A stretch of DNA of 7,011 bases from the NCBI GenBank assembly GCA_020062035.1, contig JAGUXD010000080.1, forward strand, positions 1 to 7,011. Direction: 5' to 3'. Every line of letters begins with the position of its first letter. The stretch's first letter is position 1. This document shows, piece after piece, positions 1 through 7,011 of the stretch. Position numbers and translations under genes: made by a program. A model generated the notes under the pieces. It had not been told where the DNA came from and searched no databases. It saw only the letters and a list, made by a program, of their open reading frames with translations. The DNA comes from Candidatus Brocadiia bacterium. GTDB lineage: Bacteria; Planctomycetota; MHYJ01; JACQXL01.

Positions 1-154
1 CAGTATCCCATACTATATCCCACACTGTATCCCACACAGTATCCCACACTGTATCCCACACTGTATCACATACAGTATCCCCCACTGTATCCCACGCTGT
101 ATCCCATACTGTATCCTATACTGTATCCTACACTGTTCCCTATACAGTATCCTG
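1..154. repeat. 12-bp tandem repeat array (minisatellite)
   Basis: About 12.8 units of a 12-bp repeat, consensus CACTGTATCCCA, run without spacers from the window edge to 154, so the array is probably longer to the left. Each unit contains the core ATACTGTAT, a palindrome around one central base. That base is T in most units but A in units ending at 10, 46, 82 and 154. These A units fall on a 36-bp grid (three units), except that the unit at 107-118 has T, which hints at a higher-order repeat. The last three units (119-154) are the most degraded. Read on the minus strand the array gives a four-residue pattern (GIQC-like), which is a by-product of the repeat and not a credible protein. The role is unknown; a variable-number repeat is the simplest reading. 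Confidence 0.9.
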
Positions 155-530: not shown

Positions 531-1805
531 GTGGAAATGATTTTTGTTCTGATATTATTATTTTTAACATTTCCGTTTTCTTTAGTGCAATCCGAAGAAT
601 CTCCTCAACTCGAAGCATTGAGTGCCCCGGCAGACTTTCAGGTCTTTGATACGCCAAATGATGCTGGCGATAGTATTTCACTAACCTGGCCGGTTTCTCA
701 TTTAGATAGCAAGGAATTAGAATATATTATATACATCTCCAAAGAACAGGATAAGGACTTCAAGGAAATACGGCGGATTAAAGCGGATACTAATTATAAA
801 TCCGATGCTCCTGAATTATTTGGTTTTTCGGATGAGAATAAAAAATCTCATTTTATAAAGATTTATCCATTGAAGGCATATCCACCGCCCCGAACAGAAG
901 ACCAATCCGAAAACAAGAAAAACATATCTGCCATAAAAGGCAGTGTATATTATTTCAAATTAGGTATAACCGATGGGAGACAGACGGTAATTTCAGAAAA
1001 GGTATTATTATCCCAGGCAAAAGGCAATATCTTCAACTGGTCGAAATTGAATAACATTATTCTGATGATAATATTTTCTGCTGTTGTGTTATGGTTTATC
1101 CGGCATGCTCGTAAAGGAAAGGAATTTTACCTGCGCAAGATTGCCGGATTGGATGCTGTGGAAGAAGCAGTGGGCAGGGCGACTGAAATGGGTAAAACGG
1201 TCCTTTTTATTCATGGGTTGGGTGGAATGGGCGACATTGCTACTATTGCTTCTGTTAATATTCTTGGTCGTATTGCCAGAAAGATTGCCGCTTATGATGC
1301 AACCTTAAAGGTAACAAATATAGACCCGATTGTTATGGCCGTCAGCCAGGAAATAGTAAAGGAAGCATATAGTGAAGGAGGCAGACCTGATGCATACCGT
1401 CAGGATAATATTTTTTATGTAGCGGCTCAGCAATTTAGTTATGCCGCGGCTGTTGATGGATTAATGATGCGTGAACGGCCCGCGGCAACCTTCTTTCTGG
1501 GGACTTTTATGGCCGAGGCATTGTTATTATCTGAAACAGGCGCTATGACCAATGCCATCCAGATTGCCGGGACAGATTCATACTCACAATTACCGTTTTT
1601 TGTAACTACCTGCGACTATACCTTGATAGGAGAGGAGTTATATGCTGCTTCGGCATATCTTTCGCGCGAGCCGAAACTGGTCGGTTCGCTTAAAGGTCAG
1701 GATATCGGAAAGGGTTTTATTATTTTGGTATTAATTATAGGCACATTACTGGTAACTGTTTTCCAATGGCATTTTATTCCTAATTTACTTAGGGCGCTCG
1801 GATAA
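531..1805 (+). CDS. FnIII-like / DUF6754-type membrane protein, copy A
   Basis: This 424-residue protein is of unknown function. Residues 4-20 form a signal-peptide-like hydrophobic stretch. Residues 32-160 look like a fibronectin type III fold (DTPNDAGDSISLTW at 40-53, YFKLGITDG at 141-149). A membrane helix spans about 173-190 and is followed by a basic stretch (RHARKGK), so the next part should be cytoplasmic. Residues 206-395 match what I recall as DUF6754: GRATEMG (215-221), GRPDAY (284-289), QIAGTDS (344-350) and GEELYAASAYLSREP (367-381). A final helix covers about 393-413. The GTG start follows an in-frame TGA at 528-530, so the frame cannot extend; ATG at 537 is the other possible start, and neither has a good ribosome binding site or a basic N-terminus. 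It is first in the operon, 4 bp before copy B. Compared with A' it has a polar, proline-containing insert around 112-137. Confidence 0.85.
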   Translation: MEMIFVLILLFLTFPFSLVQSEESPQLEALSAPADFQVFDTPNDAGDSISLTWPVSHLDSKELEYIIYISKEQDKDFKEIRRIKADTNYKSDAPELFGFSDENKKSHFIKIYPLKAYPPPRTEDQSENKKNISAIKGSVYYFKLGITDGRQTVISEKVLLSQAKGNIFNWSKLNNIILMIIFSAVVLWFIRHARKGKEFYLRKIAGLDAVEEAVGRATEMGKTVLFIHGLGGMGDIATIASVNILGRIARKIAAYDATLKVTNIDPIVMAVSQEIVKEAYSEGGRPDAYRQDNIFYVAAQQFSYAAAVDGLMMRERPAATFFLGTFMAEALLLSETGAMTNAIQIAGTDSYSQLPFFVTTCDYTLIGEELYAASAYLSREPKLVGSLKGQDIGKGFIILVLIIGTLLVTVFQWHFIPNLLRALG

Positions 1806-1809
1806 AATT

Positions 1810-2514
1810 ATGAATATATTCAGACGAACTATCCCGCTGATAATTGCCTTCTGCCTCGGTATTGTAATGATTTTCAGATATTATGTACCGCATCAGAGCG
1901 CAGAGGACTTGTTAACTAAATACGGCGAATGGGTTAGGATTATTGGCGGTTTTTCTATTGTTCTTGGGCTTTATAGTTTGTTTTTTACGCATTATACGAA
2001 AATAAAGAGGGGAATGCCCGGTTGGGGATATAGTATTTTTGTATTCATCGGCTTTGCGGTAATGGTTTTCTTGGGACTGATTAAAGAATTTGAAACATTC
2101 CTGAGCATTATCTCTGGCAAATTAATAGATGTTACTTCGCCTTTTGGCTCGTGGGAAAAGTCGCTGACAGGAACTTCTTATGACTGGATTTATCAATACA
2201 TATTTAATGCCTGCGGTGCGACTATGTTTTCTATTTTGGCTTTCTATATCGCATCCGCGGCTTATCGGACATTTCGTATACGTTCTGTTGAAGCAACCAT
2301 TTTACTTCTGGCCGCAGTGATTATTATGATAGCCCGCGTACCGATTGGTGGTTTGATTTCACACTGGATACCGGATTTGGCTGATTGGATAATGGAAGTT
2401 CCGAATCTGGCTGCTAAACGCGGAGTTTTACTGGGAATGTGTTTGGGCAGTATTTCAACTGCGTTAAGAATTATATTCGGTATTGAACGCGGTTACTTAG
2501 GCGGTGGCGAATGA
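1810..2514 (+). CDS. Six-helix membrane protein, copy B
   Basis: This 234-residue integral membrane protein belongs to a family I cannot name. Predicted helices are about 7-24, 42-59, 73-91, 133-152, 160-182 and 204-224. The positive-inside rule (KIKRGMPGWG after helix 2, YRTFRIRS after helix 4) puts both ends in the cytoplasm. Motifs shared with B' include RGxPGWG (67-73), ATMFS (137-141), IASAA (147-151), SVEAT/SIEAT (159-163) and the C-terminal LRIIFGIER followed by YLGGG. The charged and glycine-rich motifs on the cytoplasmic side are the most conserved, which suggests contact with a partner such as the DUF6754 domain (inference). It starts 4 bp after A, and its stop overlaps the start of C as ATGA, so translation of B and C is probably coupled. 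Confidence 0.85.
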   Translation: MNIFRRTIPLIIAFCLGIVMIFRYYVPHQSAEDLLTKYGEWVRIIGGFSIVLGLYSLFFTHYTKIKRGMPGWGYSIFVFIGFAVMVFLGLIKEFETFLSIISGKLIDVTSPFGSWEKSLTGTSYDWIYQYIFNACGATMFSILAFYIASAAYRTFRIRSVEATILLLAAVIIMIARVPIGGLISHWIPDLADWIMEVPNLAAKRGVLLGMCLGSISTALRIIFGIERGYLGGGE

Positions 2515-3365
2515 TAAAATTTCTGTTGAATATTGATAGACGAATAATTTTTATATTGGTGTTGTTGGCTCTAATAATACCGCTCAAATCCCAGATATTC
2601 AATATGCCGGTTAAGCCGACTTCCACGGTAGAAAAAATATATAAAAAGATAGAGTCGTTATCGCAGGGCTCTATATTTTTGCTGTCATCTGATTATGACC
2701 CCCAGTCCCGCGCCGAATTATATCCGATGCATATCGCCTTATTGAGACACTGCTTCCGTAAAAATATAAAAGTAATCTCTATGACCCACTGGATATATGG
2801 AGTTGGTATTGCTGAAGAGGCATTGAAAAAAGCATCAGCAGAGTACAATAAAAAAGATGGCGAGGATTATGTATTTCTTGGGTGGAAACCAGGATTTGCT
2901 ATGTTAATCATAGGAATGGGTCAAGATTTGTATTCTGCTTACCCGACAGATTATTATGGTAAAAATACACGGGATATCCCGATGCTGAAGAATGTTGCTT
3001 CATTAAGGGATATTGATTATATGATTGACCTGGCAGCTGGCGCTACAATTGAACCGTGGATTATCTATGGTAGCGATGTTTATAAATTTGAGATGGGAGC
3101 AGGATGCACCGCTATTTCTGCCCCTGATATGTATCCTTTCATGCAAACCAAACAACTTAATGGATTATTAGGGGGAATGAAAGGTGCCGCTGACTATGAA
3201 ACACTATTAGAAAAAGGAACACTTGTTGGTGAAAACCTAACTCTTGAAGAAAAAACGAACCTTGCCAGGGAAGCAATGAGACCGCTAACAGCGGTGCATC
3301 TGCTGATTATTATTCTGGTAATTATGTGTAATATTTTATATCTTTTAACCCGCGAGAAAAAATGA
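2511..3365 (+). CDS. Double-anchored α/β-like membrane protein, copy C
   Basis: This 284-residue protein is not recognised. A helix at about 12-28 and another at 262-279 flank a soluble domain of some 230 residues. Basic residues at both ends (NIDRR, TREKK) suggest both termini are cytoplasmic and the domain lies outside. The domain alternates predicted strands and helices: IFLLSSDYDP (55-64), a helix ending LLRHCFRKN (77-85), IKVISM (86-91), a helix (99-112) and DYVFLG (119-124). It ends in GAGCTAISAP (196-205) and GLLGGMKGAADYE (218-230). The D-[YF]-DP-x-S motif (61-66) and GAGCT are shared with C'. Residues about 234-246 are a 13-residue charged insertion absent from C'. The start overlaps B's stop and the stop overlaps D's start (both ATGA). 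A Rossmann-like fold is a guess from the pattern; no catalytic function can be assigned. Confidence 0.85.
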   Translation: MIKFLLNIDRRIIFILVLLALIIPLKSQIFNMPVKPTSTVEKIYKKIESLSQGSIFLLSSDYDPQSRAELYPMHIALLRHCFRKNIKVISMTHWIYGVGIAEEALKKASAEYNKKDGEDYVFLGWKPGFAMLIIGMGQDLYSAYPTDYYGKNTRDIPMLKNVASLRDIDYMIDLAAGATIEPWIIYGSDVYKFEMGAGCTAISAPDMYPFMQTKQLNGLLGGMKGAADYETLLEKGTLVGENLTLEEKTNLAREAMRPLTAVHLLIIILVIMCNILYLLTREKK

Positions 3366-4126
3366 CCCCAGAAAAGAATAATAAAACAATTGATACAATA
3401 CTGTTGATAATATTTGTTGCGTTTCTATTGGGTATAAATATTTTCTTGTTTTCAGGGAAATATTTACATTTTGACACCCAAGGTGTTGGTATAGTTGTGG
3501 CGGCATTCCTAACATTGGCAATGTATAGTTTTCTTTATAAGGATAATCCGCTCTTTAAAATAGCCGAACATATTTTTGTAGGTATAGGTATGGGGATGGG
3601 CGTTGTCCTGACATGGCTGCAGGTGATTAAACCGCTGTTGTATAAGCCATTAATCAGGCATGCTATCTTTGATAATACGCCAGGCACTCCGGACTACATT
3701 CTGATAGTACCGATGATATTGGGTATATTTATGTTTGCCCGTTTATATGGCAAAACATCCTGGCTTTCACGTTGGTCTTTTGCATTCATAGTAGGTGGTG
3801 GTGCAGGCATTGGCATCCCGGTTATAATTAACAGCCTCATCTTAAAACAACTGGAGCCGTCCTTACAACCGATTTTTGTAGATTGGGTTGTAACCTGGCA
3901 AAGTATCAATATATTACTTATACTGGTCGGAACTATTTCGGTACTAATATATTTCTTTTTCTCACTGCCACATAAAGGAACAATCGGCGGCATTTCAAGA
4001 ATAGGCATCTGGTTTTTAATGATATCATTCGGTGCCACATTTGGTTATACTGTAATGGGCAGAATGTCCTTGATTATACAAAGGATTCAATTTCTTTTGA
4101 CAGATTGGCTACATATAATTAAATAG
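3362..4126 (+). CDS. Seven-helix membrane protein D (single copy)
   Basis: This 254-residue hydrophobic protein has likely helices at about 11-30, 41-58, 66-87, 111-128, 137-159, 180-200 and 211-230, followed by an amphipathic C-terminal stretch that may be an eighth helix. Striking segments are MYSFLYKDNPLFKIAEH (54-70), a glycine-rich helix FIVGGGAGIGIP (142-153) and GATFGYTVMGRMSL (224-237). I recall the SFLYKDNP...AEH pattern from uncharacterised planctomycete-type membrane proteins but know no function. The charged residues D61, E69 and H70 next to helix 3 would be natural sites for a functional role (inference). It is translationally coupled to C by an ATGA overlap and ends 9 bp before A'. 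It is the only gene here without a paralogue in the window, so it may be the shared subunit of both cassettes. Confidence 0.85.
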   Translation: MTPEKNNKTIDTILLIIFVAFLLGINIFLFSGKYLHFDTQGVGIVVAAFLTLAMYSFLYKDNPLFKIAEHIFVGIGMGMGVVLTWLQVIKPLLYKPLIRHAIFDNTPGTPDYILIVPMILGIFMFARLYGKTSWLSRWSFAFIVGGGAGIGIPVIINSLILKQLEPSLQPIFVDWVVTWQSINILLILVGTISVLIYFFFSLPHKGTIGGISRIGIWFLMISFGATFGYTVMGRMSLIIQRIQFLLTDWLHIIK

Positions 4127-4135
4127 CATCAAATT

Positions 4136-5365
4136 ATGAACTGTCATTACGCAAGAAGCGGATTAATAACCTTAATCATTGTCCTATTAGCATTTCCTTT
4201 GGCTGTTTTGGCTCAAGATAAACCATCTTTAATGCCTCCGCAGGACTTTATTGCCTTTGATACGCCCAATGATGACGGTAAAAGTATTTCTCTTATATGG
4301 AAAGCATCTGAGAGTGACCGGGAAGGAGTTTACTATATCATTTATGCGGCTACTTCATCCAAAGGTCCATGGAAAGAGCAATACCGAGTTCTGTCAACTA
4401 CCAGGTTCAAATCAGATGCGCCACAATATTTCGGTTTAAGCAAAGATAACGAAAAATGGCATTTCTATGAAGTTACAGACATTAATGAAAATCCTCTCTC
4501 GATTACTACTCCTACATATTTCAAATTGGCCGTTACCGACGGGACAAATACCATAGCATTCCCGGGTATTGCTTTAAGTATGCCCCAAGGTAACTGGTTT
4601 GATACATCTAAGATAAATGTTCTTGTTTTTGTAATTGTCTTCTCGTTTCTGGTAATGTATTTTATTAGCCTGGCACGAAAGAATCTTAACCTATTCATTA
4701 GACATATACCTGGTTTGGATGCCATAGAAGAGACCATTGGTCGGGCAACCGAAATGGGTAGACCGATTCTTTATCTTAATGGGCTTCTGGATATGTCCTC
4801 GCTTTCTACAATTGCTTCTACAAGTATACTGGGTAAAGTGGCACGCAAGGTCGCCAACTACGATTCACAGATAAAGGTCCCTTGCTATGACCCGATTGTA
4901 ATGTCGGTCTGCCAGGAAGTGGTCAAAGAATCCTATTTAGAGGCAGGGCGTCCCGACGCATTCAAAGAAGATAATATTTTCTTTATTACCAATGACCAGT
5001 TTGCCTATGCAGCGGCCGTTGACGGAATTATTGTAAGGCATAAACCGGCTGCTAACCTTTATATGGGTTATTACTATGCTGAGTCACTGTTAATAGCAGA
5101 AACAGGTGCGGTCAGCGGTGCGATGCAGATTGCCGGAACCGACTCCATTACCCAATTACCCTTCTTTATTACCACCTGTGATTATACATTGATGGGTGAG
5201 GAATTATATGCGGCCTCGGCTTATCTATCACGTGAACCATTACAATTGGGTTCACTTAAAGGACAGGACTTTGGCAAAGGATTTATTATTTTAATGCTGG
5301 TTGTGGGAACCATCGTCAGCACTATCGGATATCCGTTTTTTGTTAATCTGGTTAGGACTTTCTGA
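4136..5365 (+). CDS. FnIII-like / DUF6754-type membrane protein, copy A'
   Basis: This 409-residue paralogue of A has a clearer signal peptide: basic R7, a hydrophobic core at 10-24 and a likely cut after AVLA at 26. The FnIII-like domain covers about 35-148 (FDTPNDDGKSISLIW at 41-55, YFKLAVTDG at 128-136). A helix spans about 160-178 and the DUF6754-type region 193-382, with a last helix at about 380-400. By hand count it is identical to A at 128 of 200 positions across the DUF6754 region, with no gaps. The final part (QIAGTDS to SLKGQD) is almost unchanged, while the segment after GRATEMG differs: A has FIHGLGGMGD and A' has YLNGLLDMSS. The outer FnIII domain is less conserved than the inner domain, so the copies may bind different external partners (inference). 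Its ATG lies 9 bp after D without a recognisable ribosome binding site and 2 bp separate it from B'. Confidence 0.88.
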   Translation: MNCHYARSGLITLIIVLLAFPLAVLAQDKPSLMPPQDFIAFDTPNDDGKSISLIWKASESDREGVYYIIYAATSSKGPWKEQYRVLSTTRFKSDAPQYFGLSKDNEKWHFYEVTDINENPLSITTPTYFKLAVTDGTNTIAFPGIALSMPQGNWFDTSKINVLVFVIVFSFLVMYFISLARKNLNLFIRHIPGLDAIEETIGRATEMGRPILYLNGLLDMSSLSTIASTSILGKVARKVANYDSQIKVPCYDPIVMSVCQEVVKESYLEAGRPDAFKEDNIFFITNDQFAYAAAVDGIIVRHKPAANLYMGYYYAESLLIAETGAVSGAMQIAGTDSITQLPFFITTCDYTLMGEELYAASAYLSREPLQLGSLKGQDFGKGFIILMLVVGTIVSTIGYPFFVNLVRTF

Positions 5366-5367
5366 TT

Positions 5368-6078
5368 ATGATTAAACGACAAATACCTCTGGTGATTGCT
5401 TTTATTGTGGGTGTGATGTTTATCATCCAATTTTTTGTGCCACACAAGGTGTCACAAGATGCATTGACATATGTGAATCAATGGAGCATAATTATCGGCG
5501 GTATTTCTATATTACTAGGCATTTACAGCCTGATTCATTTCCATTTTATTTCAATCAGACGTGGCAGACCCGGCTGGGGATTCAGCGTAGTGCTTTTTGG
5601 ATGTTTTGGATTGGCTGTACTTGTCGGATTTCTGCCCTCTATTGTGTTGTGGTTCAAACCGGTCCAGCAGGGTGCTGAACCGGGTGTCTGGCTTGGTTTT
5701 ATTCCACTCAAACCAGGGGTAGAAGAAGGCTCGCCATTATTCTGGCTATTCCTCAACCTTATTTCACCGTTTATGGCAACGATGTTTTCGTTAATCGGAT
5801 TCTTTATTGCTTCTGCGGCATTCAGGGCATTCAGGGCTCGCAGTATTGAAGCAACCCTTTTGCTTATCGCAGCAGTTATTATCATGCTCGGTCAGATTCC
5901 ATTGGGACAGATGATCTGGCAGGGGATTCCCGATATTATGATGGACTGGATTCTCAAGGTGCCTAATACTGCGGCTAAACGGGCAATAACTTTTGGCATT
6001 ACACTGGGTTCCATCGCCTTCTCGTTAAGAATCATATTCGGTATTGAACGCGCTTATTTAGGCGGTGGTAAAGATTAA
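5368..6078 (+). CDS. Six-helix membrane protein, copy B'
   Basis: This 236-residue paralogue of B has helices at the same positions. From ATMFS (137-141) to the C-terminal YLGGG about 62 of 96 residues match B, with one single-residue length difference near 190. The extracytoplasmic loop between helices 3 and 4 (about 92-130) keeps its length but is nearly unrelated: here it is rich in G, P and E (GAEPGVW, GVEEGSP), whereas B has a more polar, serine- and lysine-containing loop. Cytoplasmic motifs RRGRPGWGFS (64-73), AAFRAFRARS (150-159) and AAKR (202-205) are kept. It follows A' by 2 bp. Unlike B, its stop (TAA) is not overlapped by the next start: 47 bp with a hairpin separate it from C'. 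The function is unknown and should be the same as that of B in a second complex or in a mixed complex. Confidence 0.87.
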   Translation: MIKRQIPLVIAFIVGVMFIIQFFVPHKVSQDALTYVNQWSIIIGGISILLGIYSLIHFHFISIRRGRPGWGFSVVLFGCFGLAVLVGFLPSIVLWFKPVQQGAEPGVWLGFIPLKPGVEEGSPLFWLFLNLISPFMATMFSLIGFFIASAAFRAFRARSIEATLLLIAAVIIMLGQIPLGQMIWQGIPDIMMDWILKVPNTAAKRAITFGITLGSIAFSLRIIFGIERAYLGGGKD

Positions 6079-6079
6079 G

Positions 6080-6097
6080 TCCCGACAGGAGTCGGGA
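6080..6097. repeat. GC-rich hairpin between B' and C'
   Basis: A perfect 7-bp stem TCCCGAC/GTCGGGA surrounds the loop AGGA, starting one base after the stop codon of B'. The corresponding B-C junction has a 4-bp gene overlap, so this hairpin is extra sequence. It is followed by TGGGAAAGG and not by a T-run, so strong intrinsic termination is unlikely. It could act as an mRNA processing or stability element, or simply be another copy of the short palindromes that litter the non-coding DNA here. Confidence 0.75.
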
Positions 6098-6125
6098 TGG
6101 GAAAGGTAAGATTTGATTAACCCAT

Positions 6126-6959
6126 ATGACTAAAGAATTGAGTTTTAATTTGACACGTTGGGTTATCTTTATACTGGTCGCCCTGGCTATCATTATCCCG
6201 ATTGTCATCAGAAAACACATAAAACTGCCGGAGACATCTTCAGGTGTCGTGAAAAATATCTATGACCATGTTGAATCCTTGCCTAAAGACGCGCCCATAA
6301 TTGTTTCAGTTGATTTTGACCCGTCATCTGATGAAGAATTGAGACCGATGATTAATGCACTCTTACGCCATGCCTTCAGAAAAAACCTGCGGGTGATTGG
6401 TATGACCATCTGGGGCCCGGCTGCTGCTGGAACTCTGGTTGATATTTTTACTAAAATGGCGCAAGAGTCAAACAAGCAATACGGGATAGATTATGCGATT
6501 ATGCCGTTTAAACCAGGCGGGATGCAGATTGTTATTTTACTGAGCCAAAATATCTTTGAAGCATACCCCAAGGACTATAAAGATAAAAATACCAAGGAAC
6601 TCCAGGTTTTCAAGGGTATAAAAAACCTTAAGGATATGGGGTTTGCCATATGCGTTTCAGCCGGTCAGGCCGTTGACATCTGGATAGCTTATGGAAAAGA
6701 AAAGGGCAAAATGCCATTAGGCGCCGGCTGCACCGGAGTTATGGCTACTGATTATTACCCTTACCTGCAGTCCGGTCAATTGTTAGGATTACTTGGCGGA
6801 GTAAGCGCCGCGGCTCAGTATGAAACCCTGATTAAATGCCAGGATAGAGCTATTGAAAGTATGAAACCGCAAACCGTGGTTCATTCTTTGATTATTCTTT
6901 TGATAATTGTCGGTAATATCATATATTTTATCAGGCTGTCCAAAAAGTCCTTGCTTTAG
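6126..6959 (+). CDS. Double-anchored α/β-like membrane protein, copy C'
   Basis: This 277-residue paralogue of C has helices at about 12-28 and 252-268 with the soluble domain between. Shared landmarks are VDFDPSS (62-68), ALLRHAFRKNLRVIGM (78-93), FKPGG (128-132), YPKDY (147-151), GAGCTG (199-204), YYPYLQSGQL (210-219) and GLLGGVSAAAQYETL (221-235). The cysteine in GAGCT (C202, equal to C199 in C) is conserved, whereas C81 of C is alanine here. It lacks the 13-residue insert of C before the second helix. C/C' look more diverged than A/A' or the conserved half of B/B'. An in-frame TGA at 6114-6116 limits the start, and ATG 6126 is the first available; there is no ribosome binding site at normal spacing, the closest purine run (GGGAAAGG, about 6100-6107) being too far upstream. 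The function is unknown. Confidence 0.85.
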   Translation: MTKELSFNLTRWVIFILVALAIIIPIVIRKHIKLPETSSGVVKNIYDHVESLPKDAPIIVSVDFDPSSDEELRPMINALLRHAFRKNLRVIGMTIWGPAAAGTLVDIFTKMAQESNKQYGIDYAIMPFKPGGMQIVILLSQNIFEAYPKDYKDKNTKELQVFKGIKNLKDMGFAICVSAGQAVDIWIAYGKEKGKMPLGAGCTGVMATDYYPYLQSGQLLGLLGGVSAAAQYETLIKCQDRAIESMKPQTVVHSLIILLIIVGNIIYFIRLSKKSLL

Positions 6960-6963
6960 ATAA

Positions 6964-6979
6964 TCCCGCTAAAGCGGGA
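6964..6979. repeat. GC-rich hairpin after C'
   Basis: The stem TCCCGC/GCGGGA with loop TAAA begins five bases after the stop codon of C'. It is nearly the same palindrome as at 381-398. The downstream sequence CTATAATTCC has no T-tract, so it is a poor intrinsic terminator and transcription may continue into the next gene. Confidence 0.7.
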
Positions 6980-6993
6980 CTATAATTCCTCTT

Positions 6994-7001
6994 AAAGGAG
7001 G
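6994..7001 (+). promoter_or_regulatory. Strong Shine-Dalgarno site for a gene beyond the edge
   Basis: AAAGGAGG is a near-perfect ribosome binding site, the only one in the window. The last base (A7011) would give a 9-nt spacing if the next two bases are TG, so a further operon gene probably starts at 7011. The site lies in a small inverted repeat, TCCTC (6987-6991) with GAGGA (6998-7002) and a 6-nt loop, which could partly mask it. The in-window ATG at 7002 is too close and is followed at once by TGA. Confidence 0.55.
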
Positions 7002-7011
7002 ATGTGAGTTA

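Follow-up and report, generated by a model that had tools for sequence, protein, structure and literature searches.

The window, i.e., the whole stretch of 7,011 bp that was analysed, is one entire contig (G000:C34) which ends shortly past the gene C' and carries one complete copy of a four-gene membrane cassette, A-B-C-D, together with a second copy that is cut by the contig end (Table 1). The repeating unit is A-B-C-D and not A-B-C, and as this membrane set recurs beside or together with the same soluble partners in many bacteria, it is likely to represent an undescribed envelope machine. The order A-B-C-D-A'-B'-C' on one strand, with all parts being membrane proteins, had been read from the sequence beforehand and was recovered here, as all seven ORFs are present on the plus strand and A, B, C and D were each predicted to be membrane proteins.

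Table 1. Features of the window, with positions counted from its first base
Feature	Position	Strand	Description	Evidence
A (first cassette)	531-1805	+	N-terminal hydrophobic stretch, FnIII-like region, one helix, DUF6754 (residues 164-412), C-terminal helix	ORF; PF20539, 394 bits; hydropathy
B (first cassette)	1810-2514	+	membrane protein, 6 predicted helices	ORF; hydropathy
C (first cassette)	2511-3365	+	two helices around a domain predicted outside	ORF; hydropathy
D (first cassette)	3362-4126	+	membrane protein, 7 predicted helices	ORF; 3,687 homologues; hydropathy
A' (second cassette)	4136-5365	+	FnIII-like domain, helix, Rossmann-like DUF6754 domain (residues 151-403), C-terminal helix	ORF; PF20539, 403 bits; model; fold matches
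B' (second cassette)	5368-6078	+	membrane protein, 6 predicted helices	ORF; alignment; hydropathy
C' (second cassette)	6126-6959	+	two helices around a Rossmann-like domain predicted to sit outside	ORF; model; fold matches; 721 homologues
Dispersed-repeat copy at the contig end	6965-7011	+		D'-bearing contig C62 starts with another copy

The sequence repeat within the window is real. Over the alignment the identity amounts to 52% for A/A', 48% for B/B' and 43% for C/C', and the scores of the three pairs exceed the mean of 100 shuffles each by 189, 78 and 102 standard deviations, respectively. Earlier hand counts of about 64% (A/A', 200 residues) and about 65% (the conserved half of B/B') agree with the computed values of 64% for the best 200 columns and 63% for the best 100. 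The original prediction had further described a three-gene cassette doubled around a single D, of which the doubling stands while the three-gene unit does not, because D is duplicated too. A second D (D', 260 aa) was identified on contig C62 of the same genome (267-1049), 266 bp from the contig start, which rules out a single-copy D. The 47 bases that close C34 match the 47 bases that open C62 at 43 positions, and both stretches are copies of a dispersed repeat with 12 matches in the genome, many of them located at contig ends. Bases resembling a ribosome site at the end of the window were considered as the start of D' and rejected, as they are part of the dispersed repeat and the reading frame of D' opens only at base 267 of C62. 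In relatives whose contigs run on, D' follows C', giving an unbroken array A-B-C-D-A'-B'-C'-D', so that the doubled arrangement recurs, as had been anticipated; elsewhere in bacteria one or three cassettes are found.

The co-occurrence of the four genes across genomes, likewise anticipated, was counted in a sample of 294 genomes from the host phylum, whereby A, B and C were found in the identical 82 genomes and D in 80 of these. Among the named loci, a set limited to the best 80 out of 574 confirmed stretches and hence favouring near relatives, the cassette order is A-B-C-D, and all four genes locate within 6.5 kb in 79 of 83 testable cassettes, a cassette being testable if followed by more than 4.3 kb of sequence and not truncated by the end of its locus; the four not counted as complete are those of L109 and L112, the third copy in L137 and one with a weak A match (33 bits) in L118. 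A-B-C-D is thus a conserved unit, and the set is present in planctomycetes (including loci titled as anammox genera), in Nitrospira and in many uncultured groups. No further neighbour common to all groups was seen among these best 80 of 574 loci. Memo was found downstream in 24 of the 80, all titled Nitrospira, Nitrospirae or Nitrospiraceae.

A distance of 1.45-1.81 substitutions per site separates the two copies of the window, and in all four gene trees both copies are closer to sequences from elsewhere than to each other, which rules out a recent tandem duplication. Each of these trees unites the second cassettes of the class in a single group, pointing to their retention over long times, and in three-copy arrays each position forms its own group. 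Judged from these trees, the two cassettes are old paralogues which were inherited separately. The idea that the paired paralogues make hetero-oligomers or two versions of one machine sharing D fits such old paralogues, but D as the shared part is not supported. It might also be argued that the second cassette is redundant or decaying and its doubled layout functionally meaningless, as many relatives manage with a single cassette (70 of 80 named loci, the best 80 of 574). This is very improbable, since the reading frames of A', B', C' and D' are all open, the second cassettes were long kept and the positions in three-copy arrays stay separate groups.

Next to the cassette, three further genes outside the window, coding for soluble and presumably cytosolic proteins, were identified, namely S (small, unknown), M (a MutL/GlmL-type ASKHA protein) and E (a barrel-sandwich protein). 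Among the 50 testable named loci (at least 4.5 kb of upstream sequence; best 80 of 574), S-M-E locates upstream of the cassette in 37 and none of the three does in nine. A gene upstream of S-M in G000 and G001 had matches only in these two among the ORFs searched. Within the 82 cassette-bearing genomes of the phylum sample, E is present in 74 and a MutL-family protein in 77, one of the latter matches (G266) being weak and under the cut-off; the absences (E from eight, M from five) have to be read with most sampled genomes being incomplete. Both are also present where the genes lie far apart (G045, G104, G212). Of 20 genomes without S, M or E beside the cassette, a strong E is encoded at another place in 16, and a MutL match was obtained in 18; E and M are lacking in G306, M but not E in G308, and E matches are weak in G309, G310 and G317. 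G319, one of these 20 genomes, is probably identical with G278 of the phylum sample, as the match coordinates of the two coincide. D had been proposed as the single part shared by both cassettes, which is not supported, as D is duplicated with the cassette. Where a genome has at least two A matches, E occurs only once in 12 of 16 cases (two strong E matches were found in each of G030 and G060), and S and M are single in the five multi-cassette loci where S, M and E are all visible. As E usually stays single where cassettes multiply, S-M-E and not D is likely the common part for multiple cassettes.

With regard to the cassette proteins, A and A' are members of the DUF6754 family (PF20539), scoring 394.1 and 402.9 bits against a curated cut-off of 27 bits, and the family itself is without assigned function. 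B gave no family above the cut-off in the Pfam and NCBIfam scans, and by these scans neither collection contains a dedicated family for B, C, D, E or S. Structure models reached a mean pLDDT of 86.7 for A', with the FnIII fold visible, and of 94.9 for C'; the fold of the FnIII-like region of A was read from the model of its paralogue A'. Foldseek searches against the PDB returned two matches at E-value <= 0.001 for A', an FnIII protein and a glycoside hydrolase, and nothing at this threshold for C'. By sequence, no convincing solved-structure relative was found for A, B, C, D, E or M. Among the best 120 listed homologues each of D, C and E (for E from a search that went as far as 8,000 candidates), the named ones are hypothetical, uncharacterized or unknown, except for one D homologue with an automatic KefB-type label. 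The Rossmann-like matches of the A and C domains are to a fold shared by many proteins and do not point to an activity. Profile comparison gave a probability of 3% for homology between the A and C domains and of 1% for homology between B and D, and both were rejected. The helix count of D varies between three and seven over 28 homologues, and no clear charge bias was seen. A is predicted to span the membrane with its FnIII region outside and DUF6754 inside, C to expose its Rossmann-like domain outside, and B and D to form a multi-helix core. A defence system was considered as well and received no support from a PADLOC scan of eight proteins, in which the sole matches, both weak, were those of D to a 2TM effector model (E-value 0.0074) and of D' to KwaA (E-value 0.0077).

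M matches the GlmL/MutL family (PF13941; accessories of glutamate mutase and ornithine degradation) well above the cut-off of 27 bits, with 427.4 bits for M of the window genome, 430.9 bits for that of L063 and 419 bits for that of L059, the match spanning the whole of M. Its conserved glycine-rich stretches (DCGSTTTK, DIGGATTD, GSGG) we take to be ASKHA motifs. Together with matches of E to RnfC_N (15 of 19 proteins) and NQRA_N (7 of 19), both at E-value <= 0.1 and in one protein reaching 28.5 bits for RnfC_N against a cut-off of 25.6, the likeness of M to GlmL and ornithine-degradation accessory models might suggest a GlmL-type chaperone or reactivase acting with an Rnf/Nqr-like peripheral subunit; A-B-C-D, as a membrane enzyme that carries a cofactor and is possibly redox-active, would then be matured or coupled by S-M-E. 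This is considered improbable. M is about 600 aa long, with about 120 aa past the MutL region, and in contrast to its PF13941 score stays under all GlmL-type cut-offs of NF040745, NF040744 and TIGR01319 (475, 600 and 204 bits), scoring 228, 216 and 166 bits in L063 and 232, 208 and 163 bits in L059. E and A-B-C-D are what recurs around M, and no cluster of B12-dependent mutase subunits stands out among the recurrent neighbours, few clusters of which were family-scanned. RnfC_N is a common barrel-sandwich fold; the E of the window genome lacks a Pfam match at E-value <= 0.05, and the E proteins tested gave no NCBIfam match. Rnf/Nqr serves as a comparison of working principle only, in that E resembles RnfC/NqrA in its barrel-sandwich stretch and is encoded with membrane proteins, whereas no Rnf, Nqr or other redox subunit family matches A, B, C, D, A', B' or C'.

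Two further readings concern the membrane part. A-B-C-D may be a ligand-regulated ion or solute transporter with B and D as the pathway and S-M-E in maturation or regulation, the Rossmann-like domains of A and C being regulatory, like RCK domains in Trk and MthK, which we regard as rather unlikely. An envelope sensor, in which the FnIII region of A and the outer domain of C would recognise a polymer or ligand outside the cell and pass the signal on to S-M-E, is hardly probable, as the scans of A-D, E, M and S revealed neither a kinase or cyclase nor a regulator or any other output domain, and no regulator recurs as neighbour across groups.

The reading preferred here, that the products of A-B-C-D and S-M-E constitute one envelope machine for which M would be the ATP-dependent switch or power source, is considered to be somewhat short of an even chance. 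M would bind ATP via its ASKHA motifs and may act through E on the cytosolic domain of A, and the outer domains of A and C would receive the change by way of B and D, with the putative outcome that something is moved or assembled in the envelope. In a paralogous family, M and E occur as fusion ORFs of 982, 932 and 845 aa, and a sub-threshold match to FtsA was obtained with a paralogous M-E fusion. The type IV pilus inner-membrane platform, in which PilM operates with PilN/PilO, may be compared by working principle only, as there too an ASKHA protein is encoded with membrane proteins possessing outer domains, but M is of the MutL type and no Pil family was found in the scans of A-D, E, M and S. 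Cassettes in tandem likely contribute subunits that differ from each other, or different versions, all served by a single S-M-E module. A more far-reaching and doubtful extension assumes a seven-protein nanomachine of undescribed kind, in which the ASKHA ATPase M, via the adaptor E, drives A-B-C-D in about ten or more phylum-level groups, and in which tandem duplication of whole cassettes has led to hetero-oligomers with one motor.

That the function was not known and the complex possibly undescribed had been stated before, and this is consistent with the searches made, which found no described system. Full-text literature searches yielded no paper on DUF6754, PF13941, MutL together with glutamate mutase in planctomycetes, or fibronectin type III together with anammox, and the text in PMC2881027 that matched anammoxosome and fibronectin is a reference-list entry. 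As the parts are kept even when scattered around the chromosome, an important common job is suggested for them. The list of seven parts (S, M, E, A, B, C and D) makes this function directly testable, and the forms with one, two and three cassettes might provide a natural series for the change from a homo- to a hetero-oligomeric machine.

The window encodes seven ORFs head to tail on the plus strand, as identified by ORF calling, whereby the membrane-protein genes A, B, C and D of the first cassette are followed by A', B' and C' of the second. Pfam scans matched A and A' to DUF6754 (PF20539; 394 and 403 bits, respectively), and no Pfam or NCBIfam family scored above its cut-off for B, C, D, B' and C'. 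Alignment revealed pair identities of 52% (A/A'), 48% (B/B') and 43% (C/C') with scores far exceeding those of shuffled controls, and the similarity of B to D and of A to C was not above chance in such controls. The window spans the whole of contig C34, which carries at its start a tandem array of a 12-base unit (GTATCCCACACT, approximately 12.5 copies, 82% matches). The contig's end is formed by a copy of a dispersed repeat; the genome has 12 matches to it, many of them at contig ends, and the break between C' and D' is attributed to this repeat. Contig C62 begins with a further copy of this repeat (43 of 47 bases identical to the C34 end), carries a second D gene (D') and is inferred to follow C34 directly in the genome. 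An unbroken array A-B-C-D-A'-B'-C'-D' was found in the genomes G005 (L040), G020 (L042), G016 (L043) and G001 (L039). The original prediction, A-B-C doubled around a single-copy D, thus stands as regards the A, B and C pairs; however, the relatives' arrays and D' on C62 identify A-B-C-D as the repeating unit and the single D as a contig-edge effect.

Positions and spacings of the features in the window and the compared loci
Feature	Location	Detail
A-B spacing		4 bp gap
B-C spacing		4 bp overlap
C-D spacing		4 bp overlap
D-A' spacing		9 bp gap
A'-B' spacing		2 bp gap
B'-C' spacing		47 bp gap
D'	C62:267-1049	260 aa
Tandem array	window 1-152	
Dispersed repeat	window 6965-7011; also L139:1-72	last 47 bases of C34
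M-E fusion ORF	L168:6009-8957	982 aa
M-E fusion ORF	L169:2618-5416	932 aa
M-E fusion ORF	L170:1761-4298	845 aa
Gene directly upstream of S-M, window's genome and G001	L153:938-1918, L154:6993-7895	

Scanning GTDB genomes with the DUF6754 profile yielded at least 574 confirmed stretches, the best 80 of which were kept as loci; by their titles, these include Planctomycetota (among them Scalindua, Anammoxibacter, Loosdrechtia and Brocadiaceae), Nitrospirota, Latescibacterota, Gemmatimonadota, Methylomirabilis, Armatimonadota, Stahlbacteria and WOR-3, TA06, Zixibacteria, Edwardsbacteria, Fermentibacter and Hyd24-12. Within these best 80, 83 cassettes are followed by more than 4.3 kb of sequence, and in 79 of them all four genes lie within 6.5 kb. 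In the remaining four, B and C are widely separated (L109), A stands alone (L112 and the third copy of L137) or the A hit scored 33 bits (L118). When a cassette had to hold two or more of A, B, C and D to be counted, one was found in 70 loci, two in 4, three in 4 and none in 2, many loci being cut by contig ends. In 24 of the same 80 loci, including L065, L067, L071 and L073, D is followed by a gene resembling Memo (PF01875, with 144 bits for the L065 protein); all 24 are labelled Nitrospira, Nitrospirae or Nitrospiraceae. An ABC-transporter gene cluster lies near the cassette in six loci (L060, L064, L069, L070, L075, L135), in several directly after D; a family scan of one member, from L060, assigned it to the dipeptide type. 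The predicted co-occurrence of the four genes was also borne out across 294 genomes of the host phylum Planctomycetota, the window's included, as A, B and C were each found in the identical 82 genomes and D in 80 of these. D was missing from G248 and G183, and in G248 it may be cut off by the contig end, since the C match reaches base 2.

Three further families recur just upstream of A, namely E, a barrel-sandwich protein (46 loci), M, a MutL/GlmL-type ASKHA protein (38), and S, a small soluble protein (24), as revealed by ORF clustering in the best 80 of at least 574 loci. Using profiles, S, M and E were found together in 37 of the 50 such loci with at least 4.5 kb of upstream sequence, M and E in 2, E in 2 and none in 9, and the order S-A-B-C-D-M-E occurs in two planctomycete loci (L045, L052). 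Family scans identified M as a MutL-family protein (PF13941) and found no family for S. The barrel-sandwich stretch of E matched RnfC_N in 15 and biotin-lipoyl domains in 14 of 19 members (E-value <= 0.1), next to weak RraA-like and KOW/NusG-like signals; E of the window's genome had no Pfam match at E-value <= 0.05. Scoring covered at least 8,000 homologues of E, the named ones among 120 listed all being 'hypothetical protein'. M is linked to E by a paralogous family possessing both in one ORF. No A-B-C-D lies within the stretches analysed for this family, and L150, L151 and L171 hold unfused, adjoining M and E paralogues. The protein encoded directly upstream of S-M in the window's genome and in G001 may be PfkB-like.

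Among the 294 genomes, 74 of the 82 with A, B and C also have E, as does one other, and a MutL-family protein is present in 77 of the 82 and in eight others. As the genomes are related by descent, Fisher values overstate the significance of such co-occurrence, and persistence of the parts when unlinked is more telling. In 20 genomes with cassettes lacking S, M and E alongside, an E-type match was found in 19 (16 strong, E-value <= 3.3e-156; 3 weak only) and a MutL match in 18, G306 showing neither and G308 only E. On the single contig of G045 the parts are scattered (A and E near 0.29 Mb, M 0.79, D 2.30, B 3.48, C 3.53 Mb), G104 and G212 keep A-B-C-D together with E and M at other places, and the window's genome has E on contig C83 and S-M on C120. 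One strong E was found in 12 of 16 genomes with at least two A hits, two in 2 and none in 2.

A combined A+B+C tree of 116 cassettes unites the second cassettes from the window's class in a single group (support 1.0), on which the separate A, B, C and D trees agree (0.94, 0.99, 0.99 and 0.99); in the A tree it also includes three further second copies. For the window's first cassette, the nearest loci in all four trees are labelled anammox groups or Planctomycetota/Planctomycetia, and the combined tree places it beside anammox/Planctomycetota cassettes (0.71), joined with a Latescibacterota-rich group (1.0). The first cassettes of its relatives (L040, L039) are placed elsewhere, so the first slot was exchanged or lineages were sorted. 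Each position of the Zixibacteria three-copy arrays (L113, L129, L133) forms its own group in the combined tree. By these sequence groupings, the cassettes are old, distinct paralogues.

Taken together, the parts suggest a membrane complex, A-B-C-D, and a cytosolic ATP-switch module, S-M-E. Here, M would bind ATP and E would bridge M to A, with movement or assembly in the envelope as the putative outcome. It is possible that A-B-C-D instead serves transport with RCK-like control or sensing, and M, being of the MutL/GlmL type, may possibly act as a GlmL-type chaperone for a membrane enzyme. No described system emerged when the parts were scanned against Pfam, NCBIfam and PADLOC, and a search of mainly open-access literature found no paper using DUF6754 or PF13941. 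Because the seven-part combination of membrane complex and switch module matches no known kind in the tests run, we call it a new kind; if it were, for example, a transporter, the set would be a variant within an already known kind.
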